Below, piece after piece: positions 27,461 through 63,968 of a stretch of DNA of 64,000 bases. The position numbers and the translations under genes are program-made. The stretch spans positions 62,001 to 126,000 of the forward strand of contig OX637804.1 of assembly GCA_951802425.1 (NCBI GenBank), written 5' to 3'. The notes under the pieces were generated by a model. The model made no database searches, was not told the DNA's origin, and saw nothing but the letters and a program-made list of their open reading frames with translations. The first letter of the stretch is position 1, and every line of letters starts with the position of its first letter. The DNA is from Clavaria fumosa. Lineage: Eukaryota; Basidiomycota; Agaricomycetes; Agaricales; Clavariaceae.

Positions 27461-27482
27461 GAATCTGCAACTCATCTTAAGA

Positions 27483-34217: not shown

Positions 34218-34482
34218 ATGAACTTTCTCAGAGATGGTTCTCACACCTCTGACAAGGGGTTATCCCTTTAATGCCCCTCAACCAGACAGAGCTCCAGATG
34301 GCTACCCTTGGCCATCTGGGGTGTCCATGAAACCTGGTGCATGGGTTGTCAAGTTGAAGACAGTTGAGGAGGTGATTGCCCTCAACCAATAGGTGCATCA
34401 TGGAGTGCCTGACAGCAGTTATGATATGACTGCCATGATGAAGATGTGATGGGCTGTCAAGGAGGCCCAGAAGAATGCCACA

Positions 34483-35694: not shown

Positions 35695-35907
35695 TGTAAG
35701 GCCCCAGGCCTTCTATATTTCCTATTACATAATCTACATACCATATTTAGTTCAATAAGCATAGCCGCTTGGCTATGCTTACATCAGCAGCCCCTGGAGG
35801 GCCACTCACCTATATATACAATGTCACAACTGTACAGAGAGGGCAGATCCCTCTATATAGAACTACCTACTCAATATACCATTGAGTCCAGTTCTTTTGA
35901 GGGATAA
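35695..35907 (+). repeat. LTR B of Gypsy B (right arm)
   Basis: It starts TGTAAGGCC and contains ggctatgcttacatcagcag, a TATA-like cctatatata, and ttgagtccagttcttttgag. Compared with the solo LTR at 54202-54427 it lacks the terminal 15-20 bp (CTTACA). Confidence 0.85.
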
Positions 35908-37478
35908 GCTGCCTTTCAATGGCCCTGGCTTGGGTGGTGTTGTCATTCATAATTTTTGACTGGCAGGGTGTGTCCTGGTGGTCAGTATGGGGGGGTTGTG
36001 TTCATGTAGTCCTGCTGCTCCCTGCATCTTCAGTCTGGTGACTGCTGGCATTGGTTAACATTTGGTTTTTGGCTTTATTTTGCTGTTCTCTGCTCTGCTC
36101 TAGTATGGGTAGGTGGTTTGGAAATGTAGATATGGTAGTTAAGAGGCTCTTGTAAGGACTATGGTACTAGGTGACTGGGTATTCTTGATTTTGTTGTTGG
36201 GTTTTTATGGTGTTGTTGGGGTTGCCTAGAAAGGAAGTTGCTCCCTTCACTCCCTTGTTCAATGCCATTGTCACACTCTGAGTCAATCGTTGCAACTGCC
36301 CTCATTGCCATCATGGTTGGTCATATTGAGGCCATGGTCCCAGCTCCTGCCAGCACCCCAGCAGGCTGGTTGAATGTGGCTGACCCTGCATCTGTGAACA
36401 ATGGGCCAGCATCTCCAATGGAATTGGTGATCTCACCTCTGCCATTGGGAAATGATGCAGTGTCTATCGCCCTAGCTGTGTCCTGGGCAGAGTCACAACT
36501 GTGGTATCACTGCTTACCTCAATTTGTGCTTCACAAATAGTGTCCCAGTGCAAGACTGCCTGCCAGCTTCTGAGTCCCTCTGCCAATTTGGTGCCTCGCT
36601 TGCAGGCCAGTACTCAGGGTCAGTGGCATGCAACATCCTGGCTGGTGTGAGAGCCTAGCACATCTTCTCCAATGTCCCTTGGAAGGGGGGTGTGCATCTC
36701 CAGCAAGCCCTGCATGGTGGTGAAAACCTGCAGCCTGTGACCTCAATCATGCCCATGTGATGGCCAGTGTCTTGTGACAACTCATGCCCACTGGACCCAT
36801 CCTGATTACTGTGCATGTCCCTGAATGGAGTATAAGAAGAGTCACAATACCTGCCTTCACTACCATTATCACCCTGCTGAAGATCAGCCTTGACCTGCTC
36901 ATTGAACTGCTCAGCCAAGGGGCTGATTGCTGCACTCTCAGAGAAGGGCCTACCCAAAAGAAAGAAAGCAGTGAGGCAGCACTTACCACCACAATGAACT
37001 CTGCCAGACCCAAGGAAAAGGACTGGCTGAAAGGGAAGTGTTACATCTGCAGAAGACAGGACATTATCAGTATGATTGTTGGGCAAAAGAGGGAGGGAAA
37101 GGAAGGGCAAGGCCCCCAACAAAAGGGCAGAAACACTGAGAAGGCTGCCACTGCTGAGCATGACAGTGACAAGATAGCATGGCTGGCTGTCATTGAAGAA
37201 GATTGTCAGCCTGAGACAGGCAAAAAGCCTGCCACTCACCTGACACATGACTATGGCAATGTCAAAATATACAACTCCAGCACTTTGTGGCACATGTCCC
37301 CTTACTGTTTGAAGTTTGTAAACTTCACTGAAATCCCTCCCAAGAACATTCACACAGCTTACTGGCATACCTTCTGTGCCACTGGCAAGGGGGATATGTA
37401 CATCATGGTCCCAAAGGGGGAAACCAAGACAAATTTTTTATTATGAGACATACTCTATACCCCAGCAATGTCAACAAC
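35908..37478 (+). pseudogene. Copia gag-protease fragment (right arm)
   Basis: The frame 36784-37446 (220 aa) gives a gag C-terminus, KGKCYICRRQDIISMIVGQK (a knuckle whose later Cys/His are lost), NTEKAATAEHDSDKIAWLAV, and the Ty1/Copia protease lead-in ATHLTHDYGNVKIYNSSTLW. In active relatives the site is DSG; here Asn-Ser-Ser (37273-37281). The frame is closed by TGA at 37444-37446, then reads on as DILYTPAMSTT until the Gypsy A LTR at 37479, which therefore inserted into Copia. Upstream, 36238-36540 is an open frame I cannot assign, and 35908-36237 is repetitive T/G-rich sequence without recognisable features. Confidence 0.75.
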
Positions 37479-38158
37479 TGTTATGACCCCATCCAATCAC
37501 ATAAGCACTATCTCCACTCCAGGCTCTGGACTCTGCACCTTCTCTGATCTGCTCTGCCATAACTCTGCATACTCTGCTTCACACTTCCCTCAGACTTTGT
37601 TCTAGAACCTTCTCCCACCATCCCCCTGTGCTTGTAACCAATGGGTGGATGCCCATGACCCATGGGAGTCATTGTTGTTGTGGTTCCTTTGTTCCTTGAA
37701 GATTGCACAGGCACTTGTGGTGAAACCCTCCTGGAAATTTGATATATACTATGTTTCAGAGTACTCTTCTACTCCTGTCCTTGCAGTATAAGATCCCACC
37801 TGTAGTTCCCTGTTCTGCAATTTGAATATTATCATCCCTTGATCCTGAACTCTGAGCTTTCATCCTCATTGTCCTCAACATTCTTCACATCATCCAAGCA
37901 ACTCCAAGCAACTCTGACAGACTTTGGAGTTTTACCTTTAACTTCTGATTTTGGTCTTAGGTGTTGTTCCATTTGACAAATAGGGACATGTATATACATG
38001 GTGGCACAACACATACATTGAGACCACAGTCCCATCTATCTCTGCTAACACTATCTACTTCTCTGCTTCTCTGATCTCAGACTCTAATCAGATTCCAATC
38101 ATACTTCTCTGCTCCATTCTGCTAACCTCTGCACTACTAACCTGACAGAACCATGACA
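37479..38158 (+). repeat. Gypsy A LTR, full length (680 bp)
   Basis: Ends are TGTTATGACCCC (37479) and CCATGACA (38158), giving an imperfect TGTTATG/CATGACA terminal inversion. It is homologous throughout to 56348-57005 and, reversed, to 11344-11867 and 20437-20871. Almost no CpG remains. It sits inside Copia protease sequence on its left and is followed by Gypsy A leader and gag remains on its right. Confidence 0.88.
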
Positions 38159-38731: not shown

Positions 38732-39869
38732 TCAAGACATTCTAGTACTTTGTGTACCCCCTTTGGCCTTCAACACTGCTTCAACCCTCCTAGGCATGCT
38801 TTCTACCAATTCCTGGCACACTGAAGATTCTATCTTCTCCCACTCCACCTGGACCCTCTCCCACAATTCCAATATCCCTTTTGGTGCTGTTTCATACCCC
38901 TGGAGCCTCCTTTTCAGGTGTGCCCATAGGTGTTCAATAGGGTTGAGGTCAGGAGACTGTGCTGGCCATGTCAGGACCTCCATCCCATTCTCCTGGAACC
39001 AGGCCTTGGCCTTCTTGCACTTATGCTTGGGGTCATTATCCTGCTGGAAAATAATATCAACTGGCTTCTTCTTAAAATACCTGATGCTGGACTGCAGCTC
39101 ATCCTCCAAAATTTTGACATAAAGGTCCCCATCCATCCTTCCATCAATCTTGCATGCATATCCAACTCCACTCCACATCATACATCCCCATACCATCAGA
39201 GATCCCCCCCCAAACTTCACAGTCCCACTCACAGTCCTCTGACAAGGACCTTCTCCAGCCTTCTTCCAGACCCAACTCCTGCCATCTGAGCCCAAGCGAT
39301 TAATCTTGGTCTCATCTGACCATACCACTCTCTTCCAGTCCTCCACAGTCCAGTCCTTGTGAGCAATTGCAAAGTCCAACCTCTCTCTACAATGACACTT
39401 TGAGAGGAGGGGCTTTTGCTGCTTCACTGCAGACTTCAGTCCAGCCTTTTTGAGGTGTAGGCGGACTGTCTCAGCACAGAGGGACTGGTTGGAAATGTCA
39501 GAGAGGGCTCTGGTTACCTGGACAATCAATGGTGAGGGCCTGATTGGAAATGGGAGAGAGTACTTTGCCTACCTGGACAGCAGTGTCTGCCTTCCCAGAG
39601 GTTAGAAGCTGAATAGCATGGTGAACATAGGTGGGAGTAAGCTTGGCAGGTTGACCTCCAATGGCTTTGGCAAGGTGAGAGCGATGCTTAGAGCGAAGCC
39701 TAGAGATAGTGCTGGTGTGGACACCAGTGACAGCAGAGATATGATGGGCAGAGTGGCCTGCATCCAGGAGAGAGAGGATGTGTTTAGAGGTAGCAAGGGA
39801 CAAGGAGCGCATCTTGGATGTTGGGGGTATTTCATGCCCAGAGAGGCATGCAGGAAGGTGGGTGATCAT
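38732..39869 (-). CDS. Tc1-like DD34E transposase (probable 55-nt intron)
   Basis: The model is complement(join(38732..39517, 39573..39869)), 360 aa from 39869 or 341 aa from the ATG at 39812. The N-terminal half has paired helix-turn-helix DNA-binding modules (LDAGHSAHHISAVTGVHTST and GQPAKLTPTYVHHAIQLLTS). The catalytic core has WSDETKINRLGSDG, IIFQQDNDPKHKCKKA and SPDLNPIEHLWAHLKRR, with exactly 34 residues between the second Asp and the Glu. Without removing 39572-39518 (GTAGGC...GTCCAG) the frame is broken. That segment is a tandem duplicate of the adjoining 55 bp. It would excise and integrate the element at TA. No disabling stop is visible, so activity is possible if the intron is spliced. 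Confidence 0.88.
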
Positions 39870-40787: not shown

Positions 40788-43700
40788 TAGGCACACAAAA
40801 TTTCAAAAGACTAGCTTGAGTGGTTAGCTTGCAGTGAAAGAAAGCGCAGATACTCCATCTGCACAAGGACTATGCTGTTAGGATAGGAGCAACAAGGGAC
40901 CATTCGCAGAAAAACAGTTTGGTCTGTTTGGCATGTTATATGATAGTGGTCATCATTTAGAGCATCCATGATCAATTTCAAGAGATTTTCACAGTTAGAT
41001 CTTGTGCTGTGAGGCCTGCAAACTTGTATGGGTACTTGTGTTGTTTAGGTTTGTAGGAAGGCAACTGTAGTCCTGGATGTGGCAGAGTGATTGAAACAAA
41101 GTCAGGGTGTATTATTCATGCACTATACTCAATCTTTCAATGTGATCCCATTTGATTTAGGTTCCACCACAAGTACAAACTTGTGTGAGGATGTGAGAAC
41201 TGGATTCTGACTATATGCTAGAATTGTTGCTTTGTGGGTGATGGGAGGGGGGAGAGAGGGATGGAATATGATAGGTATGGGATGGCCCAGTATAGCATTG
41301 CATTTGTTTTGGAATCCTATGGTTGGTTTTGATAAACGGGAGAATTTTGACTGGTTTGGTCAGCAGCTTTGGCATGCATTGGGAAATGAGTTTTGGGAAA
41401 ATGTAAACCATGGAAATTGAGGATTAGAGGGGTAGATATAGGCACACAAAATTTCAAAAGACTAGCTTGAGTGGTTAGCTTGCAGTGAAAGAAAGCGCAG
41501 ATACTCCATCTGCACAAGGACTATGCTGTTAGGATAGGAGCAACAAGGGACCATTCGCAGAAAAACAGTTTGGTCTGTTTGGCATGTTATATGATAGTGG
41601 TCATCATTTAGAGCATCCATGATCAATTTCAAGAGATTTTCACAGTTAGATCTTGTGCTGTGAGGCCTGCAAACTTGTATGGGTACTTGTGTTGTTTAGG
41701 TTTGTAGGAAGGCAACTGTAGTCCTGGATGTGGCAGAGTGATTGAAACAAAGTCAGGGTGTATTATTCATGCACTATACTCAATCTTTCAATGTGATCCC
41801 ATTTGATTTAGGTTCCACCACAAGTACAAACTTGTGTGAGGATGTGAGAACTGGATTCTGACTATATGCTAGAATTGTTGCTTTGTGGGTGATGGGAGGG
41901 GGGAGAGAGGGATGGAATATGATAGGTATGGGATGGCCCAGTATAGCATTGCATTTGTTTTGGAATCCTATGGTTGGTTTTGATAAACGGGAGAATTTTG
42001 ACTGGTTTGGTCAGCAGCTTTGGCATGCATTGGGAAATGAGTTTTGGGAAAATGTAAACCATGGAAATTGAGGATTAGAGGGGTAGATATAGGCACACAA
42101 AATTTCAAAAGACTAGCTTGAGTGGTTAGCTTGCAGTGAAAGAAAGCGCAGATACTCCATCTGCACAAGGACTATGCTGTTAGGATAGGAGCAACAAGGG
42201 ACCATTCGCAGAAAAACAGTTTGGTCTGTTTGGCATGTTATATGATAGTGGTCATCATTTAGAGCATCCATGATCAATTTCAAGAGATTTTCACAGTTAG
42301 ATCTTGTGCTGTGAGGCCTGCAAACTTGTATGGGTACTTGTGTTGTTTAGGTTTGTAGGAAGGCAACTGTAGTCCTGGATGTGGCAGAGTGATTGAAACA
42401 AAGTCAGGGTGTATTATTCATGCACTATACTCAATCTTTCAATGTGATCCCATTTGATTTAGGTTCCACCACAAGTACAAACTTGTGTGAGGATGTGAGA
42501 ACTGGATTCTGACTATATGCTAGAATTGTTGCTTTGTGGGTGATGGGAGGGGGGAGAGAGGGATGGAATATGATAGGTATGGGATGGCCCAGTATAGCAT
42601 TGCATTTGTTTTGGAATCCTATGGTTGGTTTTGATAAACGGGAGAATTTTGACTGGTTTGGTCAGCAGCTTTGGCATGCATTGGGAAATGAGTTTTGGGA
42701 AAATGTAAACCATGGAAATTGAGGATTAGAGGGGTAGATATAGGCACACAAAATTTCAAAAGACTAGCTTGAGTGGTTAGCTTGCAGTGAAAGAAAGCGC
42801 AGATACTCCATCTGCACAAGGACTATGCTGTTAGGATAGGAGCAACAAGGGACCATTCGCAGAAAAACAGTTTGGTCTGTTTGGCATGTTATATGATAGT
42901 GGTCATCATTTAGAGCATCCATGATCAATTTCAAGAGATTTTCACAGTTAGATCTTGTGCTGTGAGGCCTGCAAACTTGTATGGGTACTTGTGTTGTTTA
43001 GGTTTGTAGGAAGGCAACTGTAGTCCTGGATGTGGCAGAGTGATTGAAACAAAGTCAGGGTGTATTATTCATGCACTATACTCAATCTTTCAATGTGATC
43101 CCATTTGATTTAGGTTCCACCACAAGTACAAACTTGTGTGAGGATGTGAGAACTGGATTCTGACTATATGCTAGAATTGTTGCTTTGTGGGTGATGGGAG
43201 GGGGGAGAGAGGGATGGAATATGATAGGTATGGGATGGCCCAGTATAGCATTGCATTTGTTTTGGAATCCTATGGTTGGTTTTGATAAACGGGAGAATTT
43301 TGACTGGTTTGGTCAGCAGCTTTGGCATGCATTGGGAAATGAGTTTTGGGAAAATGTAAACCATGGAAATTGAGGATTAGAGGGGTAGATATAGGCACAC
43401 AAAATTTCAAAAGACTAGCTTGAGTGGTTAGCTTGCAGTGAAAGAAAGCGCAGATACTCCATCTGCACAAGGACTATGCTGTTAGGATAGGAGCAACAAG
43501 GGACCATTCGCAGAAAAACAGTTTGGTCTGTTTGGCATGTTATATGATAGTGGTCATCATTTAGAGCATCCATGATCAATTTCAAGAGATTTTCACAGTT
43601 AGATCTTGTGCTGTGAGGCCTGCAAACTTGTATGGGTACTTGTGTTGTTTAGGTTTGTAGGAAGGCAACTGTAGTCCTGGATGTGGCAGAGTGATTGAAA

Positions 43701-46700
43701 CAAAGTCAGGGTGTATTATTCATGCACTATACTCAATCTTTCAATGTGATCCCATTTGATTTAGGTTCCACCACAAGTACAAACTTGTGTGAGGATGTGA
43801 GAACTGGATTCTGACTATATGCTAGAATTGTTGCTTTGTGGGTGATGGGAGGGGGGAGAGAGGGATGGAATATGATAGGTATGGGATGGCCCAGTATAGC
43901 ATTGCATTTGTTTTGGAATCCTATGGTTGGTTTTGATAAACGGGAGAATTTTGACTGGTTTGGTCAGCAGCTTTGGCATGCATTGGGAAATGAGTTTTGG
44001 GAAAATGTAAACCATGGAAATTGAGGATTAGAGGGGTAGATATAGGCACACAAAATTTCAAAAGACTAGCTTGAGTGGTTAGCTTGCAGTGAAAGAAAGC
44101 GCAGATACTCCATCTGCACAAGGACTATGCTGTTAGGATAGGAGCAACAAGGGACCATTCGCAGAAAAACAGTTTGGTCTGTTTGGCATGTTATATGATA
44201 GTGGTCATCATTTAGAGCATCCATGATCAATTTCAAGAGATTTTCACAGTTAGATCTTGTGCTGTGAGGCCTGCAAACTTGTATGGGTACTTGTGTTGTT
44301 TAGGTTTGTAGGAAGGCAACTGTAGTCCTGGATGTGGCAGAGTGATTGAAACAAAGTCAGGGTGTATTATTCATGCACTATACTCAATCTTTCAATGTGA
44401 TCCCATTTGATTTAGGTTCCACCACAAGTACAAACTTGTGTGAGGATGTGAGAACTGGATTCTGACTATATGCTAGAATTGTTGCTTTGTGGGTGATGGG
44501 AGGGGGGAGAGAGGGATGGAATATGATAGGTATGGGATGGCCCAGTATAGCATTGCATTTGTTTTGGAATCCTATGGTTGGTTTTGATAAACGGGAGAAT
44601 TTTGACTGGTTTGGTCAGCAGCTTTGGCATGCATTGGGAAATGAGTTTTGGGAAAATGTAAACCATGGAAATTGAGGATTAGAGGGGTAGATATAGGCAC
44701 ACAAAATTTCAAAAGACTAGCTTGAGTGGTTAGCTTGCAGTGAAAGAAAGCGCAGATACTCCATCTGCACAAGGACTATGCTGTTAGGATAGGAGCAACA
44801 AGGGACCATTCGCAGAAAAACAGTTTGGTCTGTTTGGCATGTTATATGATAGTGGTCATCATTTAGAGCATCCATGATCAATTTCAAGAGATTTTCACAG
44901 TTAGATCTTGTGCTGTGAGGCCTGCAAACTTGTATGGGTACTTGTGTTGTTTAGGTTTGTAGGAAGGCAACTGTAGTCCTGGATGTGGCAGAGTGATTGA
45001 AACAAAGTCAGGGTGTATTATTCATGCACTATACTCAATCTTTCAATGTGATCCCATTTGATTTAGGTTCCACCACAAGTACAAACTTGTGTGAGGATGT
45101 GAGAACTGGATTCTGACTATATGCTAGAATTGTTGCTTTGTGGGTGATGGGAGGGGGGAGAGAGGGATGGAATATGATAGGTATGGGATGGCCCAGTATA
45201 GCATTGCATTTGTTTTGGAATCCTATGGTTGGTTTTGATAAACGGGAGAATTTTGACTGGTTTGGTCAGCAGCTTTGGCATGCATTGGGAAATGAGTTTT
45301 GGGAAAATGTAAACCATGGAAATTGAGGATTAGAGGGGTAGATATAGGCACACAAAATTTCAAAAGACTAGCTTGAGTGGTTAGCTTGCAGTGAAAGAAA
45401 GCGCAGATACTCCATCTGCACAAGGACTATGCTGTTAGGATAGGAGCAACAAGGGACCATTCGCAGAAAAACAGTTTGGTCTGTTTGGCATGTTATATGA
45501 TAGTGGTCATCATTTAGAGCATCCATGATCAATTTCAAGAGATTTTCACAGTTAGATCTTGTGCTGTGAGGCCTGCAAACTTGTATGGGTACTTGTGTTG
45601 TTTAGGTTTGTAGGAAGGCAACTGTAGTCCTGGATGTGGCAGAGTGATTGAAACAAAGTCAGGGTGTATTATTCATGCACTATACTCAATCTTTCAATGT
45701 GATCCCATTTGATTTAGGTTCCACCACAAGTACAAACTTGTGTGAGGATGTGAGAACTGGATTCTGACTATATGCTAGAATTGTTGCTTTGTGGGTGATG
45801 GGAGGGGGGAGAGAGGGATGGAATATGATAGGTATGGGATGGCCCAGTATAGCATTGCATTTGTTTTGGAATCCTATGGTTGGTTTTGATAAACGGGAGA
45901 ATTTTGACTGGTTTGGTCAGCAGCTTTGGCATGCATTGGGAAATGAGTTTTGGGAAAATGTAAACCATGGAAATTGAGGATTAGAGGGGTAGATATAGGC
46001 ACACAAAATTTCAAAAGACTAGCTTGAGTGGTTAGCTTGCAGTGAAAGAAAGCGCAGATACTCCATCTGCACAAGGACTATGCTGTTAGGATAGGAGCAA
46101 CAAGGGACCATTCGCAGAAAAACAGTTTGGTCTGTTTGGCATGTTATATGATAGTGGTCATCATTTAGAGCATCCATGATCAATTTCAAGAGATTTTCAC
46201 AGTTAGATCTTGTGCTGTGAGGCCTGCAAACTTGTATGGGTACTTGTGTTGTTTAGGTTTGTAGGAAGGCAACTGTAGTCCTGGATGTGGCAGAGTGATT
46301 GAAACAAAGTCAGGGTGTATTATTCATGCACTATACTCAATCTTTCAATGTGATCCCATTTGATTTAGGTTCCACCACAAGTACAAACTTGTGTGAGGAT
46401 GTGAGAACTGGATTCTGACTATATGCTAGAATTGTTGCTTTGTGGGTGATGGGAGGGGGGAGAGAGGGATGGAATATGATAGGTATGGGATGGCCCAGTA
46501 TAGCATTGCATTTGTTTTGGAATCCTATGGTTGGTTTTGATAAACGGGAGAATTTTGACTGGTTTGGTCAGCAGCTTTGGCATGCATTGGGAAATGAGTT
46601 TTGGGAAAATGTAAACCATGGAAATTGAGGATTAGAGGGGTAGATATAGGCACACAAAATTTCAAAAGACTAGCTTGAGTGGTTAGCTTGCAGTGAAAGA

Positions 46701-49700
46701 AAGCGCAGATACTCCATCTGCACAAGGACTATGCTGTTAGGATAGGAGCAACAAGGGACCATTCGCAGAAAAACAGTTTGGTCTGTTTGGCATGTTATAT
46801 GATAGTGGTCATCATTTAGAGCATCCATGATCAATTTCAAGAGATTTTCACAGTTAGATCTTGTGCTGTGAGGCCTGCAAACTTGTATGGGTACTTGTGT
46901 TGTTTAGGTTTGTAGGAAGGCAACTGTAGTCCTGGATGTGGCAGAGTGATTGAAACAAAGTCAGGGTGTATTATTCATGCACTATACTCAATCTTTCAAT
47001 GTGATCCCATTTGATTTAGGTTCCACCACAAGTACAAACTTGTGTGAGGATGTGAGAACTGGATTCTGACTATATGCTAGAATTGTTGCTTTGTGGGTGA
47101 TGGGAGGGGGGAGAGAGGGATGGAATATGATAGGTATGGGATGGCCCAGTATAGCATTGCATTTGTTTTGGAATCCTATGGTTGGTTTTGATAAACGGGA
47201 GAATTTTGACTGGTTTGGTCAGCAGCTTTGGCATGCATTGGGAAATGAGTTTTGGGAAAATGTAAACCATGGAAATTGAGGATTAGAGGGGTAGATATAG
47301 GCACACAAAATTTCAAAAGACTAGCTTGAGTGGTTAGCTTGCAGTGAAAGAAAGCGCAGATACTCCATCTGCACAAGGACTATGCTGTTAGGATAGGAGC
47401 AACAAGGGACCATTCGCAGAAAAACAGTTTGGTCTGTTTGGCATGTTATATGATAGTGGTCATCATTTAGAGCATCCATGATCAATTTCAAGAGATTTTC
47501 ACAGTTAGATCTTGTGCTGTGAGGCCTGCAAACTTGTATGGGTACTTGTGTTGTTTAGGTTTGTAGGAAGGCAACTGTAGTCCTGGATGTGGCAGAGTGA
47601 TTGAAACAAAGTCAGGGTGTATTATTCATGCACTATACTCAATCTTTCAATGTGATCCCATTTGATTTAGGTTCCACCACAAGTACAAACTTGTGTGAGG
47701 ATGTGAGAACTGGATTCTGACTATATGCTAGAATTGTTGCTTTGTGGGTGATGGGAGGGGGGAGAGAGGGATGGAATATGATAGGTATGGGATGGCCCAG
47801 TATAGCATTGCATTTGTTTTGGAATCCTATGGTTGGTTTTGATAAACGGGAGAATTTTGACTGGTTTGGTCAGCAGCTTTGGCATGCATTGGGAAATGAG
47901 TTTTGGGAAAATGTAAACCATGGAAATTGAGGATTAGAGGGGTAGATATAGGCACACAAAATTTCAAAAGACTAGCTTGAGTGGTTAGCTTGCAGTGAAA
48001 GAAAGCGCAGATACTCCATCTGCACAAGGACTATGCTGTTAGGATAGGAGCAACAAGGGACCATTCGCAGAAAAACAGTTTGGTCTGTTTGGCATGTTAT
48101 ATGATAGTGGTCATCATTTAGAGCATCCATGATCAATTTCAAGAGATTTTCACAGTTAGATCTTGTGCTGTGAGGCCTGCAAACTTGTATGGGTACTTGT
48201 GTTGTTTAGGTTTGTAGGAAGGCAACTGTAGTCCTGGATGTGGCAGAGTGATTGAAACAAAGTCAGGGTGTATTATTCATGCACTATACTCAATCTTTCA
48301 ATGTGATCCCATTTGATTTAGGTTCCACCACAAGTACAAACTTGTGTGAGGATGTGAGAACTGGATTCTGACTATATGCTAGAATTGTTGCTTTGTGGGT
48401 GATGGGAGGGGGGAGAGAGGGATGGAATATGATAGGTATGGGATGGCCCAGTATAGCATTGCATTTGTTTTGGAATCCTATGGTTGGTTTTGATAAACGG
48501 GAGAATTTTGACTGGTTTGGTCAGCAGCTTTGGCATGCATTGGGAAATGAGTTTTGGGAAAATGTAAACCATGGAAATTGAGGATTAGAGGGGTAGATAT
48601 AGGCACACAAAATTTCAAAAGACTAGCTTGAGTGGTTAGCTTGCAGTGAAAGAAAGCGCAGATACTCCATCTGCACAAGGACTATGCTGTTAGGATAGGA
48701 GCAACAAGGGACCATTCGCAGAAAAACAGTTTGGTCTGTTTGGCATGTTATATGATAGTGGTCATCATTTAGAGCATCCATGATCAATTTCAAGAGATTT
48801 TCACAGTTAGATCTTGTGCTGTGAGGCCTGCAAACTTGTATGGGTACTTGTGTTGTTTAGGTTTGTAGGAAGGCAACTGTAGTCCTGGATGTGGCAGAGT
48901 GATTGAAACAAAGTCAGGGTGTATTATTCATGCACTATACTCAATCTTTCAATGTGATCCCATTTGATTTAGGTTCCACCACAAGTACAAACTTGTGTGA
49001 GGATGTGAGAACTGGATTCTGACTATATGCTAGAATTGTTGCTTTGTGGGTGATGGGAGGGGGGAGAGAGGGATGGAATATGATAGGTATGGGATGGCCC
49101 AGTATAGCATTGCATTTGTTTTGGAATCCTATGGTTGGTTTTGATAAACGGGAGAATTTTGACTGGTTTGGTCAGCAGCTTTGGCATGCATTGGGAAATG
49201 AGTTTTGGGAAAATGTAAACCATGGAAATTGAGGATTAGAGGGGTAGATATAGGCACACAAAATTTCAAAAGACTAGCTTGAGTGGTTAGCTTGCAGTGA
49301 AAGAAAGCGCAGATACTCCATCTGCACAAGGACTATGCTGTTAGGATAGGAGCAACAAGGGACCATTCGCAGAAAAACAGTTTGGTCTGTTTGGCATGTT
49401 ATATGATAGTGGTCATCATTTAGAGCATCCATGATCAATTTCAAGAGATTTTCACAGTTAGATCTTGTGCTGTGAGGCCTGCAAACTTGTATGGGTACTT
49501 GTGTTGTTTAGGTTTGTAGGAAGGCAACTGTAGTCCTGGATGTGGCAGAGTGATTGAAACAAAGTCAGGGTGTATTATTCATGCACTATACTCAATCTTT
49601 CAATGTGATCCCATTTGATTTAGGTTCCACCACAAGTACAAACTTGTGTGAGGATGTGAGAACTGGATTCTGACTATATGCTAGAATTGTTGCTTTGTGG

Positions 49701-52700
49701 GTGATGGGAGGGGGGAGAGAGGGATGGAATATGATAGGTATGGGATGGCCCAGTATAGCATTGCATTTGTTTTGGAATCCTATGGTTGGTTTTGATAAAC
49801 GGGAGAATTTTGACTGGTTTGGTCAGCAGCTTTGGCATGCATTGGGAAATGAGTTTTGGGAAAATGTAAACCATGGAAATTGAGGATTAGAGGGGTAGAT
49901 ATAGGCACACAAAATTTCAAAAGACTAGCTTGAGTGGTTAGCTTGCAGTGAAAGAAAGCGCAGATACTCCATCTGCACAAGGACTATGCTGTTAGGATAG
50001 GAGCAACAAGGGACCATTCGCAGAAAAACAGTTTGGTCTGTTTGGCATGTTATATGATAGTGGTCATCATTTAGAGCATCCATGATCAATTTCAAGAGAT
50101 TTTCACAGTTAGATCTTGTGCTGTGAGGCCTGCAAACTTGTATGGGTACTTGTGTTGTTTAGGTTTGTAGGAAGGCAACTGTAGTCCTGGATGTGGCAGA
50201 GTGATTGAAACAAAGTCAGGGTGTATTATTCATGCACTATACTCAATCTTTCAATGTGATCCCATTTGATTTAGGTTCCACCACAAGTACAAACTTGTGT
50301 GAGGATGTGAGAACTGGATTCTGACTATATGCTAGAATTGTTGCTTTGTGGGTGATGGGAGGGGGGAGAGAGGGATGGAATATGATAGGTATGGGATGGC
50401 CCAGTATAGCATTGCATTTGTTTTGGAATCCTATGGTTGGTTTTGATAAACGGGAGAATTTTGACTGGTTTGGTCAGCAGCTTTGGCATGCATTGGGAAA
50501 TGAGTTTTGGGAAAATGTAAACCATGGAAATTGAGGATTAGAGGGGTAGATATAGGCACACAAAATTTCAAAAGACTAGCTTGAGTGGTTAGCTTGCAGT
50601 GAAAGAAAGCGCAGATACTCCATCTGCACAAGGACTATGCTGTTAGGATAGGAGCAACAAGGGACCATTCGCAGAAAAACAGTTTGGTCTGTTTGGCATG
50701 TTATATGATAGTGGTCATCATTTAGAGCATCCATGATCAATTTCAAGAGATTTTCACAGTTAGATCTTGTGCTGTGAGGCCTGCAAACTTGTATGGGTAC
50801 TTGTGTTGTTTAGGTTTGTAGGAAGGCAACTGTAGTCCTGGATGTGGCAGAGTGATTGAAACAAAGTCAGGGTGTATTATTCATGCACTATACTCAATCT
50901 TTCAATGTGATCCCATTTGATTTAGGTTCCACCACAAGTACAAACTTGTGTGAGGATGTGAGAACTGGATTCTGACTATATGCTAGAATTGTTGCTTTGT
51001 GGGTGATGGGAGGGGGGAGAGAGGGATGGAATATGATAGGTATGGGATGGCCCAGTATAGCATTGCATTTGTTTTGGAATCCTATGGTTGGTTTTGATAA
51101 ACGGGAGAATTTTGACTGGTTTGGTCAGCAGCTTTGGCATGCATTGGGAAATGAGTTTTGGGAAAATGTAAACCATGGAAATTGAGGATTAGAGGGGTAG
51201 ATATAGGCACACAAAATTTCAAAAGACTAGCTTGAGTGGTTAGCTTGCAGTGAAAGAAAGCGCAGATACTCCATCTGCACAAGGACTATGCTGTTAGGAT
51301 AGGAGCAACAAGGGACCATTCGCAGAAAAACAGTTTGGTCTGTTTGGCATGTTATATGATAGTGGTCATCATTTAGAGCATCCATGATCAATTTCAAGAG
51401 ATTTTCACAGTTAGATCTTGTGCTGTGAGGCCTGCAAACTTGTATGGGTACTTGTGTTGTTTAGGTTTGTAGGAAGGCAACTGTAGTCCTGGATGTGGCA
51501 GAGTGATTGAAACAAAGTCAGGGTGTATTATTCATGCACTATACTCAATCTTTCAATGTGATCCCATTTGATTTAGGTTCCACCACAAGTACAAACTTGT
51601 GTGAGGATGTGAGAACTGGATTCTGACTATATGCTAGAATTGTTGCTTTGTGGGTGATGGGAGGGGGGAGAGAGGGATGGAATATGATAGGTATGGGATG
51701 GCCCAGTATAGCATTGCATTTGTTTTGGAATCCTATGGTTGGTTTTGATAAACGGGAGAATTTTGACTGGTTTGGTCAGCAGCTTTGGCATGCATTGGGA
51801 AATGAGTTTTGGGAAAATGTAAACCATGGAAATTGAGGATTAGAGGGGTAGATATAGGCACACAAAATTTCAAAAGACTAGCTTGAGTGGTTAGCTTGCA
51901 GTGAAAGAAAGCGCAGATACTCCATCTGCACAAGGACTATGCTGTTAGGATAGGAGCAACAAGGGACCATTCGCAGAAAAACAGTTTGGTCTGTTTGGCA
52001 TGTTATATGATAGTGGTCATCATTTAGAGCATCCATGATCAATTTCAAGAGATTTTCACAGTTAGATCTTGTGCTGTGAGGCCTGCAAACTTGTATGGGT
52101 ACTTGTGTTGTTTAGGTTTGTAGGAAGGCAACTGTAGTCCTGGATGTGGCAGAGTGATTGAAACAAAGTCAGGGTGTATTATTCATGCACTATACTCAAT
52201 CTTTCAATGTGATCCCATTTGATTTAGGTTCCACCACAAGTACAAACTTGTGTGAGGATGTGAGAACTGGATTCTGACTATATGCTAGAATTGTTGCTTT
52301 GTGGGTGATGGGAGGGGGGAGAGAGGGATGGAATATGATAGGTATGGGATGGCCCAGTATAGCATTGCATTTGTTTTGGAATCCTATGGTTGGTTTTGAT
52401 AAACGGGAGAATTTTGACTGGTTTGGTCAGCAGCTTTGGCATGCATTGGGAAATGAGTTTTGGGAAAATGTAAACCATGGAAATTGAGGATTAGAGGGGT
52501 AGATATAGGCACACAAAATTTCAAAAGACTAGCTTGAGTGGTTAGCTTGCAGTGAAAGAAAGCGCAGATACTCCATCTGCACAAGGACTATGCTGTTAGG
52601 ATAGGAGCAACAAGGGACCATTCGCAGAAAAACAGTTTGGTCTGTTTGGCATGTTATATGATAGTGGTCATCATTTAGAGCATCCATGATCAATTTCAAG

Positions 52701-53901
52701 AGATTTTCACAGTTAGATCTTGTGCTGTGAGGCCTGCAAACTTGTATGGGTACTTGTGTTGTTTAGGTTTGTAGGAAGGCAACTGTAGTCCTGGATGTGG
52801 CAGAGTGATTGAAACAAAGTCAGGGTGTATTATTCATGCACTATACTCAATCTTTCAATGTGATCCCATTTGATTTAGGTTCCACCACAAGTACAAACTT
52901 GTGTGAGGATGTGAGAACTGGATTCTGACTATATGCTAGAATTGTTGCTTTGTGGGTGATGGGAGGGGGGAGAGAGGGATGGAATATGATAGGTATGGGA
53001 TGGCCCAGTATAGCATTGCATTTGTTTTGGAATCCTATGGTTGGTTTTGATAAACGGGAGAATTTTGACTGGTTTGGTCAGCAGCTTTGGCATGCATTGG
53101 GAAATGAGTTTTGGGAAAATGTAAACCATGGAAATTGAGGATTAGAGGGGTAGATATAGGCACACAAAATTTCAAAAGACTAGCTTGAGTGGTTAGCTTG
53201 CAGTGAAAGAAAGCGCAGATACTCCATCTGCACAAGGACTATGCTGTTAGGATAGGAGCAACAAGGGACCATTCGCAGAAAAACAGTTTGGTCTGTTTGG
53301 CATGTTATATGATAGTGGTCATCATTTAGAGCATCCATGATCAATTTCAAGAGATTTTCACAGTTAGATCTTGTGCTGTGAGGCCTGCAAACTTGTATGG
53401 GTACTTGTGTTGTTTAGGTTTGTAGGAAGGCAACTGTAGTCCTGGATGTGGCAGAGTGATTGAAACAAAGTCAGGGTGTATTATTCATGCACTATACTCA
53501 ATCTTTCAATGTGATCCCATTTGATTTAGGTTCCACCACAAGTACAAACTTGTGTGAGGATGTGAGAACTGGATTCTGACTATATGCTAGAATTGTTGCT
53601 TTGTGGGTGATGGGAGGGGGGAGAGAGGGATGGAATATGATAGGTATGGGATGGCCCAGTATAGCATTGCATTTGTTTTGGAATCCTATGGTTGGTTTTG
53701 ATAAACGGGAGAATTTTGACTGGTTTGGTCAGCAGCTTTGGCATGCATTGGGAAATGAGTTTTGGGAAAATGTAAACCATGGAAATTGAGGATTAGAGGG
53801 GTAGATATAGGCACACAAAATTTCAAAAGACTAGCTTGAGTGGTTAGCTTGCAGTGAAAGAAAGCGCAGATACTCCATCTGCACAAGGACTATGCTGTTA
53901 G
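40788..53901. repeat. Satellite B, 651-bp tandem array (20.1 copies)
   Basis: The exact period is 651 bp. Twenty complete units plus 94 bp lie between aggcacacaaaa (40788) and ctatgctgttag (53901). All units encode the same three spurious short ORFs without one residue of difference, so the array is nearly perfectly homogeneous. Unrelated to sat A apart from similar length. Fragments of the same monomer occur at 11868-12149 and 20143-20436, with diverged relatives at 40745-40787 and about 54140-54515. Confidence 0.98.
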
Positions 53902-57124: not shown

Positions 57125-57994
57125 CTATGCATCTATGAGTATATGGCATAATTCCTCCCTCAGAAGCAACTCTGACACCTGTTCCTGATAGTGCTCCTTT
57201 AGTGCCTCCTCTCCATCATTGATCATCAATTCCTCAGGATACTTTGCACTTCCATCCTCCACTGCCAACTCATACATTGCCCAAAGTTCTCCATGACTGA
57301 GCTCCTCTTCATGTTTGGACCCATTGTGCCTCAGTGAATGCATGTATGCATATTGGGCTTCAGCTTCCTGCTGCAACTGCTCCTCTGAATAGTCCTCCCT
57401 CAACAGCTCCTGTTCTATCTGCTCCCAGTGATAGAGCTCCTCCAATGCTTCCTCTCCACCCTTGATTAACAACTCTTCAGGATATTTTGTGGTTCCATCT
57501 CCCACTGCCAGCTCATACATTGCCCATAGTTCTCCATGAGTTGGTTCCACTGATGGTTCCTCTCCATCCAACCAGCCACAGTGAAGTGAATGCAAGTATG
57601 CATGATGGGCTTTAACTTCTTGCCTCAAATACTCCTCTACTCCCCATTGTTTCTCCTCCCATAACTCCATCACAAGTGCTTCATTCTCACCATCACAAAG
57701 TATTGGTTTCCCAAACTCTGTCAATTCTATGACCTCTCTTCTCCAATACTCCAGTTTCTGCAGCCCTCTCCCAAATGCAGGCTTGACATTCCACATGCTA
57801 GCATATGCAATGTGCCACAGATGCTCATTGAATTTGTGAGCTGCTGTATTCTTGACCATGTATCTCTGGTAAGTATACCTTGTGATGCTGGCAAAGGCCA
57901 CCAGATCAAAAGGATGCTCCCAGGCCACATAGATCACAATCTCATCATAGAGCTCATATGGGAGGTTTGTGAGACATGGTTGGGTCCTGTGCAA
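57125..57994 (-). CDS. F-box-like protein with two internal repeats (incomplete 5' end)
   Basis: An open frame of 289 codons on the minus strand. Near its start LTNLPYELYDEIVIYVAWEH and DLVAFASITRYTYQRY look like a fungal F-box helix set (LPxEL...I......L..F..). The remainder is acidic and contains two repeats of about 75 residues, each with AxxAYxHSL, THGELWAMYELAVGDG or SHGELWAMYELAVEDG, KYPEELxIxxGEEAL and Glu-rich helices. No ATG precedes the F-box in frame. A TTCAG just upstream (58001-57997) suggests a 3' splice site and an unseen small first exon. If real, it would link substrates to an SCF ubiquitin ligase, but this rests only on the weak F-box match. Confidence 0.55.
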   Translation of the reverse strand: MHRTQPCLTNLPYELYDEIVIYVAWEHPFDLVAFASITRYTYQRYMVKNTAAHKFNEHLWHIAYASMWNVKPAFGRGLQKLEYWRREVIELTEFGKPILCDGENEALVMELWEEKQWGVEEYLRQEVKAHHAYLHSLHCGWLDGEEPSVEPTHGELWAMYELAVGDGTTKYPEELLIKGGEEALEELYHWEQIEQELLREDYSEEQLQQEAEAQYAYMHSLRHNGSKHEEELSHGELWAMYELAVEDGSAKYPEELMINDGEEALKEHYQEQVSELLLREELCHILIDA

Positions 57995-58577
57995 TGCCTG
58001 AACTCTGATTAGAAATTATATTTCAATGGAAACAATGATACATGTTGGAGCTCACATAGTGAGGACCACACAGTGTGTGTTTGTGATTAACATTGAAATC
58101 TGTTAATCCCCTGCAATGCTGTGAAACCAGAATTTCAATCCCCCACCATGTATAACCTTTTCTGATACCTACTTTATGCTGAACAATGGTCTCTTCCTTT
58201 GCAATGGAATTGACAATCATTTGGTGGCTGTGCAAGGAGTAGGTATTTTTTGAAGTGCATGTAATGCCAAGAAGAAATTTGGGACAAAGGTGGATGAGGG
58301 GGATATGAAGTGAGCTGTTTCACATTGGCTCCCAGTATATATATCTATTCCCATTGTGATTATATAATCAACCAGGGTTGATTCCAATAATCAGCCCAAA
58401 TCCATATGTATGACTTACATTTTAATTACAGAATACAGACTCTTGATCATGTGTTGGGTCAGGCACTGAAATTTTCAATGAGATAAAACTCAATTCTCAA
58501 ACAATGGGAGTATAATTGAAGCTTTGCATTAGGGTACTACAAACATGGCAGTTGGAGAGTCTTTGGGAAAAGGAAGA
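57995..58577. other. Intergenic interval
   Basis: AT-rich. Contains short ORFs only and probably the missing first exon of the F-box-like gene and the 3' UTR of the 26-exon gene. No repeat family of the window recognised. Confidence 0.5.
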
Positions 58578-61500
58578 TCAGGAATTTGCATTTGCAGCTT
58601 CCAGCCACTCTGGGTCATCACTCATGGTTGCAAGAGCTTCTAGAAGTGCTGCATCATCTGGTGTATTGGTCCCATCTGCAGTTTGGCTTCTCCTCTGTCT
58701 CTTGGTCACAGGGCCATGCTCATTAGCTAATGTGTGATTGTCATTGACACCATATGCCTGACCATCATAACGAGTTTACTCACTTGGTGTCTCCATAGCT
58801 TTCCCTTTGTTAATTGCAGAAACTAGCCCATCTTGGAATTGGGAGTGTGTTTCTGGTGCTAAGATTGCAGTCAGTATTTGTAGTCTATTGCCCAGGAAAT
58901 TGTGATGTAAACAAACCCCTGCTTCCAACCCCTTGTTCCACCTTGCCCCTACTTCGCACTAAATGAAGAGATCAGCAGGATACTTTGTTCCCAGAAGCAC
59001 AAATTGACCTCTCTTCTTACTCTTGTTTACTCTATGTTTCAGAGTAATTAGACATATAAATACAGGGATGTAATGCTGTCTTTACTCACTCCTGTCCTCT
59101 TGACTTGGTCCTCTTGGCAGCCTGAACCAAGCGCTGGATCCAGACTTCTTGGAAAAATCTGTGGTCATCTGGACACTTCTCAGCAACCATGTAGAGGAAT
59201 TCAACCAGGAGCTTCAAGCATTTCCCCTGCTCTGTAAAGAAGAGCTTCATTTCCTCCTTGCCATTACCAGGATTAGTTGCAGTCTGAAATGCAATTTCCA
59301 AGGCCCTGTTGGCAGCTGGATAGATGCCCTCCTCTTCAACCCACTCTGCATCTAGTTCAAAGATGTAGGAGGATTCCACTGGATCCAAGGGCACCTCTGC
59401 TGGCAAATTTTCCAGCAGATCTGAAAGGAATTGAATTTCCCCAAAGATTTCAGCAGTCCTGTCCACAACAAGTGGCTTATCTGAAATAAACAGTGAAGTC
59501 AATTCAGGAAATTTTAAAAGTTGGGATAAGCTGACTAGTACCTCTGGAAACTTCCACCTCAGCCATTTCTGAACCAGATTCCATCTCAACCATTTCTGTG
59601 TCTGTCATAATCCTTGTTAGGTCAATGGTACTTGCATAAATCATAGTTGAACATACCTTGGTCAGTATCAAACTTGTTGATGGCAGCTGTCTCCAGGGCA
59701 GTGTTGGACTGCTTTTTCAGAGCTTTAGTGGCAACATTTCTCTTCTTGACAGGTAGGCCAGACAGTAGGCCAGAAATTTCAGCCCTGTGTTTTATCTGCT
59801 TCTCCTGTAGTGCCAGGACCTTTTGCTGATGTTTTTGAATTGATGACATCTTGATGCTACCAACATCCACCTCTGATGTTTCCTTAGCAGCATAGTGATC
59901 CCTGATCATTCCAGCATCAGCAGTCTCAGCAGATGTTGCCCAGGCCTTCCTTATGTGTTCTGCCAATTCCTCTGCTGGAACATCTTCATCAGTGGCACAT
60001 TCTGTTGGATTGTCATGGTGACGTCCGTCTAACTCCATTTTCTTGAAGAGTGCCTGTAGTATGCCACTTAGTGTTGCCCATATAATGTATAATGGAACCT
60101 TAGGATTTACCTGAAACAGTCCTTTTGCCGCTTTCTCCACAGCAGGAATAAAAACCCACTCATTGTCAATGGCTTCACCTGTCTGAATGGTTCCAATACC
60201 TGGCTGCTGTAAAATCTTCATGATTTTGGCCACTGCCCCTGTCATCTTCTCCTCTACCCCAATCTGATGGAAAAGTTGGTTGGCTTTGATAGTCTGTGCT
60301 CTCCTAGCCAATGCCATATCTTTAACCTCCGGGATCTCTTCACCAGTATGTGGATCAGTGATGGCAGGGACCTTGATGTGTAGCAGTCCATCCCAGTATG
60401 TCCAGTTCTGAAGGCATACATAACTGCAGAGATGTTTCAAGAGCTTATTACGAAGATGCACAATGGATGAGTCTGCCATCCACTTGACACGATCAGGCAT
60501 ATCCGCAATTGTTTGGAGAACACAACCAGCCATCATGCGAAGATCTGTTCGCTTGGAGTTAGTCTTGTGGCACCAGTTAAAGGATGTTTGTGCAAGGGCT
60601 GTCTTGAGACTGTCTAGATCAAGGCAAGTGTCCAATATCCAGTGATCTTGAGGGAGGGGAGGAGCATGGGAAGGGTCCACATTTATCAAGCCATTTGTTT
60701 GCTTAGCAATCTTGGCCTCAGCTGCTACCCATTCTTTGAGCCATTCCTGCACTTCCCTGCCTTGCTCACTGTTTGTACCATGGGGCCATGCATTAGAATG
60801 AACATATCCACCCTCTTGCTTCATCTTATTGCACAGCATCCTAACCCCAGCATTCTCCTGGAAGAGGAAGGTTATAATCTGTCATTGTGTTAGCAGGATA
60901 CAACAGAGGAGCATTCATGATACTGACATTTCCCAAAAGATAGTTGACATCCTTTTCATTAATCTTTGACTTCTTGATGAAATGGACTGTAACCCCATCC
61001 CAATGATCTTGCCAAGAGGTGTTTGACCTTTGGTTGAAAGGGATGTAGGGAAAAGGTTCAACCCAAGTGGCAATCTATCACAAAAAGGTTGGCATTGGTG
61101 CTGTGCAATCAAGGATAGTGGAATAACAACAATCACCTCTGCTAGTGCAAGTTCATGCTGCTCAAACTTTTCTTGGATGTGAATCATAAAGCCAAGACCA
61201 AGCAAAGGCAACTTGAGCTTGAGTCCAACAAAGGCTTCCTGGACCTTTGCTGCCTTTATCCATTTGAGTTTGTTGACAAAGTCATCCTGGATTTCTGCAT
61301 CTACTGATCCCTCATCTGGATCACCAAATCGTTTGAATGCTGCCTCAGTTTTAATGATGACCTCATCAAAGTACTCTTCAAAGGCAATATTCCACCTGCC
61401 ACCTATTTGGCCCAATTCATCACAGAGCTGGGAGAGATGTCTGGTATAGATGTCATCCCACTCCTCAAGAAGGAACCTATGAATCCAAGGGATGTGGCCA

Positions 61501-63968
61501 TGGCCACTTGCAACAATTCGCAGGAGAGTTTGAATTGCCCCCTGTGTGGCTCTGTGTTGCTGGTCATGTAGAGCATCCCCTTCTAGTCCAGAGAGTGAGT
61601 CTGAAATTGCCTGATAGTCTGGCATTGAGATTGGTGTTGTCAGGTACTCCAGGACTAGGAGCTGGTGATTCCAAATATGCACTACAAGCTATAATTATTC
61701 ATTCAAGCAAGTGAGCATGCACAAATAAATAGATTGGAAAAAAACTCACAGAGAGTGAAACCCGGTGCAGTTGGTTGAAAAATCGTGGATTGAGGACATG
61801 TGCCATGCCCTCAAAGTACTTGTGCTGGAATAGGTGCACCAAGAGGGCCAGGATTGTTGGGTTGTTCATTATCCGACGAATATCCATTCTGCTGGTAGCA
61901 TAGCTCCCAGATAATCCCTGGAGAATGCCATCCCAGGAGTACTTTGGTTTGCCCTGGAGAGACTGTATGAGGTGCACCAATTGAGAGGCAGGGTCATCTA
62001 TCCTTTGAATGGTCTTGCGATTTTCTGCCAACTTGTGTTTGACAATGTCACCCAATGGTGAGGCTTCCAGTGCCCCTGTGTTTAATGGTATTAGGGTTCA
62101 ACAAGGTCTTCATGATGGAGTAAGTTGGTCTACACCTTTGTCCCAAAAGCCCACCAGCCACACACAATGCTCCAAAGCTTCCTCATTCAACTCCAGATCT
62201 TCCCTAATTTTCATCTCATCTTTTTTCTTTTCTACTGCTTCCTTCAAGGATGCCACAAGTTTACCACGTTTGTTGAGTTCATTCTTGAATGCCTTGGTGA
62301 TAAGCCAAGCATGACGATGTTGGCCTGCAAGCATCTCTAGCACTACTTCCTCCTCCTTAACCCCAGGTGCACACTGGAGATGACAGAAGTTCTTCAGCCG
62401 GAATGATTTCATTGAACTGAGTTTGAATTTTTCCTTTTCAACAAGGCAGAACATGGCATTGGGTATTGAATCATTTTGCAGACCATCTTGATCTACATAT
62501 TTGTCAAGTGCAGAGACTTGGGCCTTGGAAATAGGTCGAGCTCCATCCCACTTTATTTGTGCCTTTGTGGTGGCAAAATTGATGTATGCATAGCCAAGGA
62601 GAGTGTCACTCTTGACACTCTCAGCCATTGTTGCCAGGTTTGTCCTGAGTTCACAGTCCCATGCAACAGGCTATCTTAGTCTGTCAGACAACAGTCTCTA
62701 ATATTAATAGTAAACATACCCGAATTTCCTGTGATGGGCTGTACACCATAGGGCTTTGGTCCTAGAATATATTATTGATTTGGTGTATCACACAGAAGAC
62801 TGATCACATACTCCACTTAGATCACTTTCTTCCTCTGGATCAGGGTTTGTCTGCAAGAAATAAGCTGAGGGCTCAGATTGAATTATGCAAACCGCACACC
62901 TTGTTTGAATCACTTTGTGCTCCTGGAACTCCTTTCTGTGCAAAATTAGAATTGTAATTAGCATGAATCTAGAATAATCACATACCCTGCTTGACTCCCC
63001 TGTGCTTGCCACTTGTTTTCCCTGTTGCGAATGAGAATTATGATTAGCATAAGTTTTCACTAGTCACATACCTTGCCAGACACCTTTGGCTCATTTCCCT
63101 GCACCAAATGAGACATGTGTTTATCAGAACTTCACACTAATCACATACCTTGCTTGGCCTTGATTTATCTCCCTAAGAAAATGGGAATTCTGCTTATCAT
63201 AAATTTGTGCTAATCACATACCTTGCCAGGCCCTCTTGGAAGAGCAGGTTCATCCCCCTGTGGCAAATGGGAAATATGTTTATCAGAAATTTACACTAAT
63301 CACATACCTTGCCAGACACCCTTGGCTCATTACCCTGTGCCAAATGAGAAATGTGTTTATCAGAAATTTACACTAATCACATACCTTTCCTGGTCTGCTG
63401 GGCAGAGCTGGTTCATCTCCCTGTGCCAAATGAAAAATGTGTTTATCAGAAATTTACACTAATCACATACCTTGCCAGACACCCTTGGTTCATTTCCCTG
63501 TGCCAAATGAAAAATGTGTTTATCATAAATCTACTCTAATCACATACCTTGCCAGACACCCTTGGCTCACTTCCCTGTGCCAAATGAGAAAGGTGTTTAT
63601 CAGAAATTTACACTAATCACATACCTTGCCAGACACCTTTGGCTCATTTCTCTGTGCCAAATGAGAAATGTGTTTATCAGAACTTCACACTAATCACATA
63701 CCTTGCTTGGCCTTGATTTATCTCCCTATGAAAATGGGAATTCTGTTTATCATAAATTTACACTAATCACATACCTTGCCAGGCCCTCTTGGAAGAGCAG
63801 GTTCATCCCCCTGTGGCAAATGAGAAATGTGTTTATCATAAATTTACACTAATCACATACTTGGTTTGATTCTCCCTGACCTGTTTCTCTTTTCTCCTGT
63901 GCCAAGTGAGAATGTGATTAGCATGTGTGAACACTAATCAGCCAGTCACTTACTGATTTGTCAGACAT
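58578..63968 (-). CDS. 26-exon gene, 1299-residue protein with ParB-like signature and micro-exon-encoded repeats
   Basis: Exons 17-26 on the minus strand: 62670-62136, 62075-61750, 61688-61137, 61074-60928, 60857-60111, 60053-59657, 59601-59542, 59480-59090, 58884-58784 and 58726-58578. Exons 1-16 lie in 63968-62720 (listed separately). All phases match and the total is 3900 nt. The ATG at 63968 (MSDKS) is the only start candidate before the window edge. Residues 1-165 are a hydrophilic repeat region. Residues about 180-300 contain KWDGARPISKAQVSALDKYV and LEMLAGQHRHAWLI (AGQHR at 280-284), reminiscent of ParB/sulfiredoxin-like folds. The rest is helical, without a motif I know. The C-terminus is acidic (TPDDAALLEALATMSDDPEW). 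The 60927-60858 intron uses a less usual GTCAGT donor, and 60110-60054 is a 3n intron that could be retained. Function unknown. Confidence 0.8.
62720..63968 (-). other. Exons 1-16 of the 26-exon gene: micro-exon array
   Basis: Exons with lengths: 63968-63954 (15), 63896-63861 (36), 63810-63775 (36), 63725-63702 (24), 63651-63625 (27), 63574-63548 (27), 63497-63471 (27), 63420-63385 (36), 63334-63308 (27), 63257-63222 (36), 63172-63149 (24), 63098-63072 (27), 63021-62986 (36), 62935-62900 (36), 62850-62812 (39), 62761-62720 (42). Every length is a multiple of 3 and every intron is phase 0. Most exons start GGN and end AAG, and encode short peptides such as GNEPRVSGK, GDEPALPRGPGK and GDKSRPSK. 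Introns are 49-50 nt (first 57), mostly GTATGTGATTAG...GGCACAG with a TGATAA branch-like site. Spliced products have not been observed. The model rests on consistent splice sites and an open frame. Confidence 0.82.

Follow-up and report, generated by a model that had tools for sequence, protein, structure and literature searches.

A tandem array of symmetric micro-exons in a subtelomeric gene of Clavaria fumosa and its probable growth by duplication of exon–intron modules

A stretch of 64,000 nucleotides from the agaricomycete Clavaria fumosa (positions 62,001 to 126,000 of contig OX637804.1, assembly GCA_951802425.1; hereafter the window) carries on its minus strand a tandem run of fourteen very short exons, each a whole number of codons long, each in phase 0, which together lead in frame into an extended open gene body. 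This array was originally noticed from the sequence alone, and our analysis confirms that observation. We consider that it probably belongs to a protein-coding subtelomeric gene, the disordered, hydrophilic N-terminal tail of which grew longer as modules made of one exon and one intron were duplicated in tandem again and again. Five copies of the gene with differing numbers of micro-exons, one of them bearing a nearly new duplication elsewhere in the gene, form a natural series in which the birth of such modules can be followed.

Layout of the array and the gene body

In the rebuilt gene model (Table 1), exons 2-15 measure 36, 36, 24, 27, 27, 27, 36, 27, 36, 24, 27, 36, 36 and 39 nt, so that 14 of 14 are multiples of three and 14 of 14 are in phase 0, as the original prediction of symmetric micro-exons of 24, 27, 36 or 39 nt had it. 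Together with exons 1 and 16, they form 16 consecutive phase-0 exons that join in frame to the open body at exon 17. Tandem Repeats Finder reports a period of 77 bp over 63017-63860 (10.7 copies, 76% matches), and the similarity of exon 16 to exon 15 does not rise above that of shuffles. The splice sites are uniform in a looser sense than first described, with AAG/GTATGT at 10 of 14 donors and CACAG/GG at 6 of 14 acceptors (the slash marks the splice junction), and 14 of the 15 array introns start with GTATG or GTGTG. The tail is hydrophilic as predicted (GRAVY -1.6), and the view that this is not a chance pattern is upheld by nine separate types of exon, namely exons 1, 2, 13, 14, 15 and 16 and the three repeat classes, all of them multiples of three in length; independence would give this a probability of about (1/3)^9, though a common descent of exons 2, 13 and 14 would make it less remarkable. 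The fourteen exons are not fourteen independent observations, because the array units are duplicates of one another.

Table 1. Features of the array gene and its neighbour (window coordinates)
Feature	Position	Strand	Description
Exon 1	63954..63968	-	15 nt, MSDKS, phase 0; ATG in AAACATG context
Intron 1	63897..63953	-	57 nt; related to array introns
Exons 2-15, micro-exon array	62812..63896	-	14 symmetric phase-0 exons, introns 49-50 nt
Exons 2-6	63896-63861, 63810-63775, 63725-63702, 63651-63625, 63574-63548	-	
Exons 7-11	63497-63471, 63420-63385, 63334-63308, 63257-63222, 63172-63149	-	
Exons 12-15	63098-63072, 63021-62986, 62935-62900, 62850-62812	-	
Exon 16	62720..62761	-	42 nt, phase 0
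Gene body, exons 17-24	59090..62670	-	~1,052 open codons
Exon 17, whole codons	62137..62670 (exon to 62136)	-	178 aa; second possible start ACAATGG
Intron 22 and exon 23	59542..59656	-	55 nt and 60 nt (phase 1-1); unit doubled in the C2 copy
Possible 3' exons of array gene	58578..59089	-	frame not closed
Neighbouring stop-to-stop ORF	57125..58015	-	296 codons; not part of array gene

The array had also been predicted to run in phase into a frame of 1299 residues. The join is indeed in phase, but we did not recover that length: the model stays open over 1,217 codons, 165 in exons 1-16 and 1,052 in the body, as far as 59090, beyond which modelled exons 25-27 fail through 'introns' of 24 and 26 nt, a non-GT donor and stops. 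The joined protein has no match in Pfam, and a protein homology search gave none at E ≤ 1e-3 among 7,997 candidates scored from 5.8 billion proteins, nor did residues 15-300 at E ≤ 10 among 1,427 candidates. As a positive control, the retrotransposon ORF of the window matched Pisolithus, Pleurotus, Meripilus and Trametes entries in the same protein set; since that set therefore holds mushroom proteins, the array gene appears to be rare, fast-evolving or beyond the reach of a word-based search.

Exon 17 has one match in a PDB sequence search (E 1.1) and aligns over residues 45-121 with the DGQHR model TIGR03187 at E 0.11 and 12.2 bits, under the cut-off of 58.85. The motif AGQHRHAW first suggested that this exon might belong with ParB/DGQHR proteins, and the DGQHR match may serve as a lead. 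Searches of the genome for the PF02195 and TIGR03187 families yielded no candidates that reached scoring, and an AlphaFold2 model built from three sequences reached a pLDDT of 42, too poor to use. Apart from the five copies described below, the search of the genome gave three weak matches, all to the exon-24 region, at C13 (E 0.03) and at C5 (E 0.08 and 0.11); when these three loci alone are compared with it, L081 matches the region at E 3e-6 with 29% identity and the other two do not. The ORF beside L080, which we take to be transposase-like, has no Pfam match. It may be that the exon-24 stretch is common to a repeat found elsewhere in the genome.

Growth of the array and its five subtelomeric copies

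The near-identity claimed for the 50-nt introns holds for introns 2-11, the eight of which that are 50 nt long are identical pairwise at 41-49 of 50 positions; introns 12 and 13 are clearly related (36-39/50 in the tested pairs), whereas introns 14 and 15 do not bear the claim out, pairs that include either of them reaching a z of only 1.4-3.2 and so being weakly related or not at all. Intron 1 is identical to intron 2 at 39/49 positions (z 8.6), and the nine tested pairs among introns 1-13 score z of 7.9-16 over shuffles, a relatedness from which we infer that the array grew by duplicating modules of exon plus intron. Alignments between exons of different classes are weaker than those of the intervening introns (introns 3/4 at 41/49, exons 3/4 at 18/24); exon and intron would have moved as units, with the exons diverging more between classes.

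This greater likeness of introns than of exons is also what one would expect if near-identical introns had invaded a pre-existing repetitive coding exon, in the manner of the fungal introner-like elements, which are described as closely similar introns within one genome that are invasive and multiply (PMC4457414). Such an origin is highly unlikely here: two exact intron patterns match only this gene's copies genome-wide (33/33 and 15/15, some overlapping, in a search that diverged relatives would escape), the array introns are all in phase 0, and the copies differ by the duplication or absence of entire exon+intron units. Introners place near-identical introns in many unrelated genes, whereas the intron signatures found here stay within one gene family, and it is for this confinement that introners were rejected.

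A search of the 48.8-Mb genome (17 contigs) found five copies of the gene, namely the window copy (C11) and those designated C2, C6, C9 and C7, which are situated some 85-152 kb from contig ends, are all transcribed towards those ends and share the same 15-mer as exon 1. Micro-exons (exons 2-16 or their equivalents) number 15 in C11, 15 in C2, 14 in C6, 8 in C9 and 6 in C7, which indicates that exon+intron units have been gained and lost; C6, for example, is without one whole unit relative to the window copy. The C2 count takes exons 12 and 13 as two, the exon-12 donor of that copy being GTACGT (63068 T>C). C11 is open across the whole model and C2 has no stop in the codons compared. The other three copies carry damage. 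In C6, one micro-exon contains a stop, the acceptor of exon 16 has been lost and a single nucleotide is missing from exon 17; in C9, deletions shift the frame in exons 18-22 and an insertion of ~3.8 kb separates array and body; and in C7 the match ends inside exon 17 and one micro-exon is 35 nt long. The exon lengths of C9 are not taken as a sign of constraint, since its body is frameshifted. The deletions in exons 18, 20 and 21 of C9 are of exactly 10 bp each, and two of its array introns are cut to 39 and 40 nt.

Telomere-like repeats are present at four of the five inspected contig ends (those of C11, C2, C6 and C7), the C9 end consisting of other repeated sequence. They combine TTAGG with TTAG units and include 0-2 TTAGGG at each end, the C11 end having 191 TTAGG and 133 TTAG units in 1,500 bases. 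Such a mix would be unusual for a fungus, and the literature matches listed for repeats of this kind come mainly from insects.

A recent duplication in the C2 copy bears on how modules may be gained. Over 9,815 shared columns, six substitutions and two indels separate C11 and C2, the sole near-identical pair; these are the eight differences that remain when two end overhangs (57 and 185 bp) are left out. The neighbouring ORF has a counterpart beside the C2 copy that matches it at 100% identity across the 279 residues used in the search. One indel, of 13 bp, lies in the leader. The other is a 115-bp tandem duplication in C2 of intron 22 and exon 23 (gene-strand positions ~5528-5642 of L007), which adds 20 residues in frame and has produced, far from the array, a new symmetric 60-nt exon with a complete intron; because C9 has a single intron 22 and exon 23, it is C2 that gained its second. 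AGGTA is found at both ends of the duplication, in the consecutive splice donors CCAAG/GTATG and CAGAG/GTACT. Duplication at AG/GTA is seen here in one event, read against one decayed outgroup copy and with an assembly error as a possible source, and within this pair one module gain stands beside six substitutions. The array modules may have arisen in the way that exon 23 of C2 was duplicated.

The course of events that we favour can be set out in four steps. Sequence comparison shows that an ancestral exon of ~24-36 nt multiplied locally along with its ~50-nt intron, and comparison of the copies shows that the five subtelomeric loci differ in their micro-exon counts. The duplication endpoints would lie at the AG/GTA common to successive donors, seen in one event and extended here to the array, and each short intron would be removed as a unit, with all modules normally included and occasional in-frame skipping. 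As such a module extends from one splice donor to the next, every new copy brings with it a complete intron and whole codons, and the frame survives. Should donor-to-donor duplication be general, micro-exon arrays could be symmetric without selection for skipping, since a module with a symmetric exon is complete and keeps the frame as soon as it is copied. The tail itself may act as a spacer or interaction surface, to judge from its composition. We are doubtful of a further proposal, a self-extending splice module in which AG/GTA would serve both as splice signal and as duplicating microhomology, the gene would go on acquiring in-frame exons that are spliced at once, and stochastic pairing of sites would make many N-terminal isoforms.

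Translation and splicing of the micro-exons

Evidence that the array is coding is moderate and mixed among the repeats. Of the nine variable columns in the 36-nt class, tabulated for window and C9 exons, eight fall at codon position 3, as do 10 of 15 in the pooled repeat classes (binomial P 0.0085); the 27-nt class is without this third-position bias (positions 1:2:3 = 1:3:2; window and C9 exons). Differences within classes amount to 40/402 in exons, 59/699 in the preceding introns and 97/697 in the following introns, the exons being not clearly more conserved than the introns that flank them. For the body and exon 16, comparison of the window with C9 gives a dN of 0.039, a dS of 0.086 and a dN/dS of 0.45, and 48 of 133 changes are synonymous, where a neutral simulation gives 37.3 (sd 5.0) and reaches 48 in 109 of 5000 runs. 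Over the same exons, 8/9 changed codons are non-synonymous in C6, 7/8 in C7 and 2/2 in C2, a tally that counts against coding. Codons compared numbered 1,065 for C2, 302 for C6, 913 for C9 and 146 for C7, gapped codons being excluded.

A first alternative is that the whole family is a decaying, non-functional subtelomeric repeat, with the two intact copies as recently duplicated relics: three of five copies are damaged, no relatives were found elsewhere, and transposons and satellites abound nearby. That the window copy nevertheless remains open over its 1,217 codons and C2 over all those compared, and that synonymous change is in excess against C9, makes decay of this kind unlikely. Weighed together, these lines of evidence point to an array that codes for protein and is subject to weak or episodic constraint.

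Where translation begins bears on a second alternative, namely that the array is transcribed and spliced but lies in a 5' untranslated region, translation starting at the exon-17 ATG and the repeats being a drifting minisatellite. The exon-17 ATG stands in the context CAACAATGG, a good one, so translation could begin after the array; the 27-nt class, without its third-position bias, and the similar divergence of exons and introns point the same way. The sequence upstream of exon 1, which speaks for coding, is shared among copies, TATATAT and the leader that follows it being found just upstream in 5/5, with a distance from TATATAT to the exon-1 ATG of 63 nt in C11 (outside the window) and 76 nt in C2, C6, C7 and C9; in C9 the upstream homology starts 91 bp 5' of the ATG. 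A short upstream ATG precedes that of exon 1 by 47 nt (60 nt in the other copies), so that transcription has to start 3' of this short ATG for the exon-1 ATG to be the first AUG, a point against a coding array. Against this, the exon lengths are all multiples of three, open from the upstream ATG, and the 36-nt class does show a third-position bias, and we judge an untranslated array to be rather improbable. A promoter scan for bacterial sites gave 3 matches, not more than in shuffles (3.9).

We return, then, to a translated array, and to how its exons would be joined. Introns 2-12 each have an in-frame stop at the fourth codon, introns 1, 14 and 15 also hold one, and intron 13, alone among the 15 array introns, has none; retention would accordingly mostly truncate the protein, and it is mainly spliced messages that could reach the body. 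The prediction that skipping any exon keeps the frame is borne out for all of exons 2-16, which are symmetric and allow 2^15 = 32,768 arithmetical combinations, so that thousands of isoforms are possible by frame alone.

It follows that every subset of micro-exons is in frame, as would suit a programmed isoform generator in which near-identical donors and acceptors compete and each transcript carries a different subset, in the manner of the schistosome micro-exon genes. The first eight positions do not vary among the ten 50-nt introns compared, so that no pairing is obviously preferred, and a putative branch site reads CTGATAA in some introns and ATGATAA in others, features that would also suit such a generator. 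Exon skipping, alternative sites and intron retention have moreover been reported in Cryptococcus (PMC3990503), which makes skipping of micro-exons plausible here. Symmetry, however, is expected from the duplication of a single symmetric module, strong sites in short introns may all be used, and nothing was found that points to regulation, so that we think a programmed generator quite unlikely. In our judgement it is likelier that all micro-exons are included constitutively, while DNA duplication varies their copy number, than that isoforms are generated, since the former is simpler and fits the five copies. The array offers a compact test of whether the splicing of short introns can process exons of 24-27 nt faithfully.

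Relation to known systems and to the surrounding repeats

The original statement that no fungal gene of this kind had been described is too strong, as the Cryptococcus neoformans gene CNN00420 is a published precedent (Sharpton et al. 2008, PMC2395259). As described there, CNN00420 contains intron-bearing repeats of ~107 nt that differ in number among strains; each consists of exon ends and a full intron, the introns are near-identical, and their gain is ascribed to repeat expansion, the gene being EST-supported, resequenced and in possession of at least six repeated introns. The window array resembles it in having tandem units that include a complete intron and in varying in unit number, here among five paralogous copies rather than among strains. 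It differs from CNN00420, so far as that account describes it, in its shorter (73-88 bp) and more numerous units, and the symmetric micro-exons, the subtelomeric copies and the AG/GTA junction are features of the window gene. Among the matches listed in a literature search that left subscription journals mostly outside, there was no fungal micro-exon array as dense, as short and as fully symmetric. The window array thus extends a known fungal kind, with more and shorter units, a uniform phase, dispersed copies and a fresh AG/GTA junction.

Two animal gene groups invite comparison. The schistosome micro-exon genes (MEGs) have very small symmetric exons that can be skipped in frame, yield variant proteins by alternative splicing, and encode secreted or gland-associated proteins (PMC4350168). 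Most of a MEG consists of tiny symmetric exons, whereas exons 1-16 of the window gene account for 165 of its 1,217 codons; its layout is closer to that of schistosome VAL-6, described in the same source as a micro-exon stretch joined to an ordinary gene. The window introns, in contrast to those of a MEG, are ~50 nt long and near-identical. The bicycle genes of aphids, putative gall effectors with ~17 exons on average, have many tiny internal exons of one phase (PMC9168663), and to that extent the window array is like them. Their internal exons are, however, in phase 2 and those of the window array in phase 0, and tandem near-identical introns are a feature of the window array that the description of bicycle genes used here does not mention. 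By the features compared, the window gene belongs to neither group.

Tandem duplication at AGGT-like sites is already known to change intron number, as in the AGGT model of Rogers and the potato RdRp gene (PMC4974935, PMC3629103). These sources describe, for the AGGT-model, potato and fission yeast SPOG_01682 cases, new introns that come from exonic sequence or cryptic sites, and for Arabidopsis TOUCH3 the copying of a complete intron that was already present, together with exon sequence to either side of it. The window unit differs from the AGGT-model, potato and fission yeast cases as described in running from an existing donor to the next donor, and in having done so many times in the array.

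The gene lies in a repeat-rich setting. Satellites occupy window positions 1-5318 (period 655 bp, copies 99.3-99.9% identical by self-comparison) and 40788-53901 (period 651 bp, copies 100% identical by self-comparison, with a uniform GC skew of ~0.35), and a large palindrome at 20440-37910, with arms ~98.7-98.8% identical, has retroelement-like ORFs inside it. Transposon sequences in the window comprise a retrotransposon reverse-transcriptase ORF (7531-8868), a DDE_Tnp_4 transposase fragment (13571-14281) and a transposase of DDE_3/Tc3 type (38732-39568).
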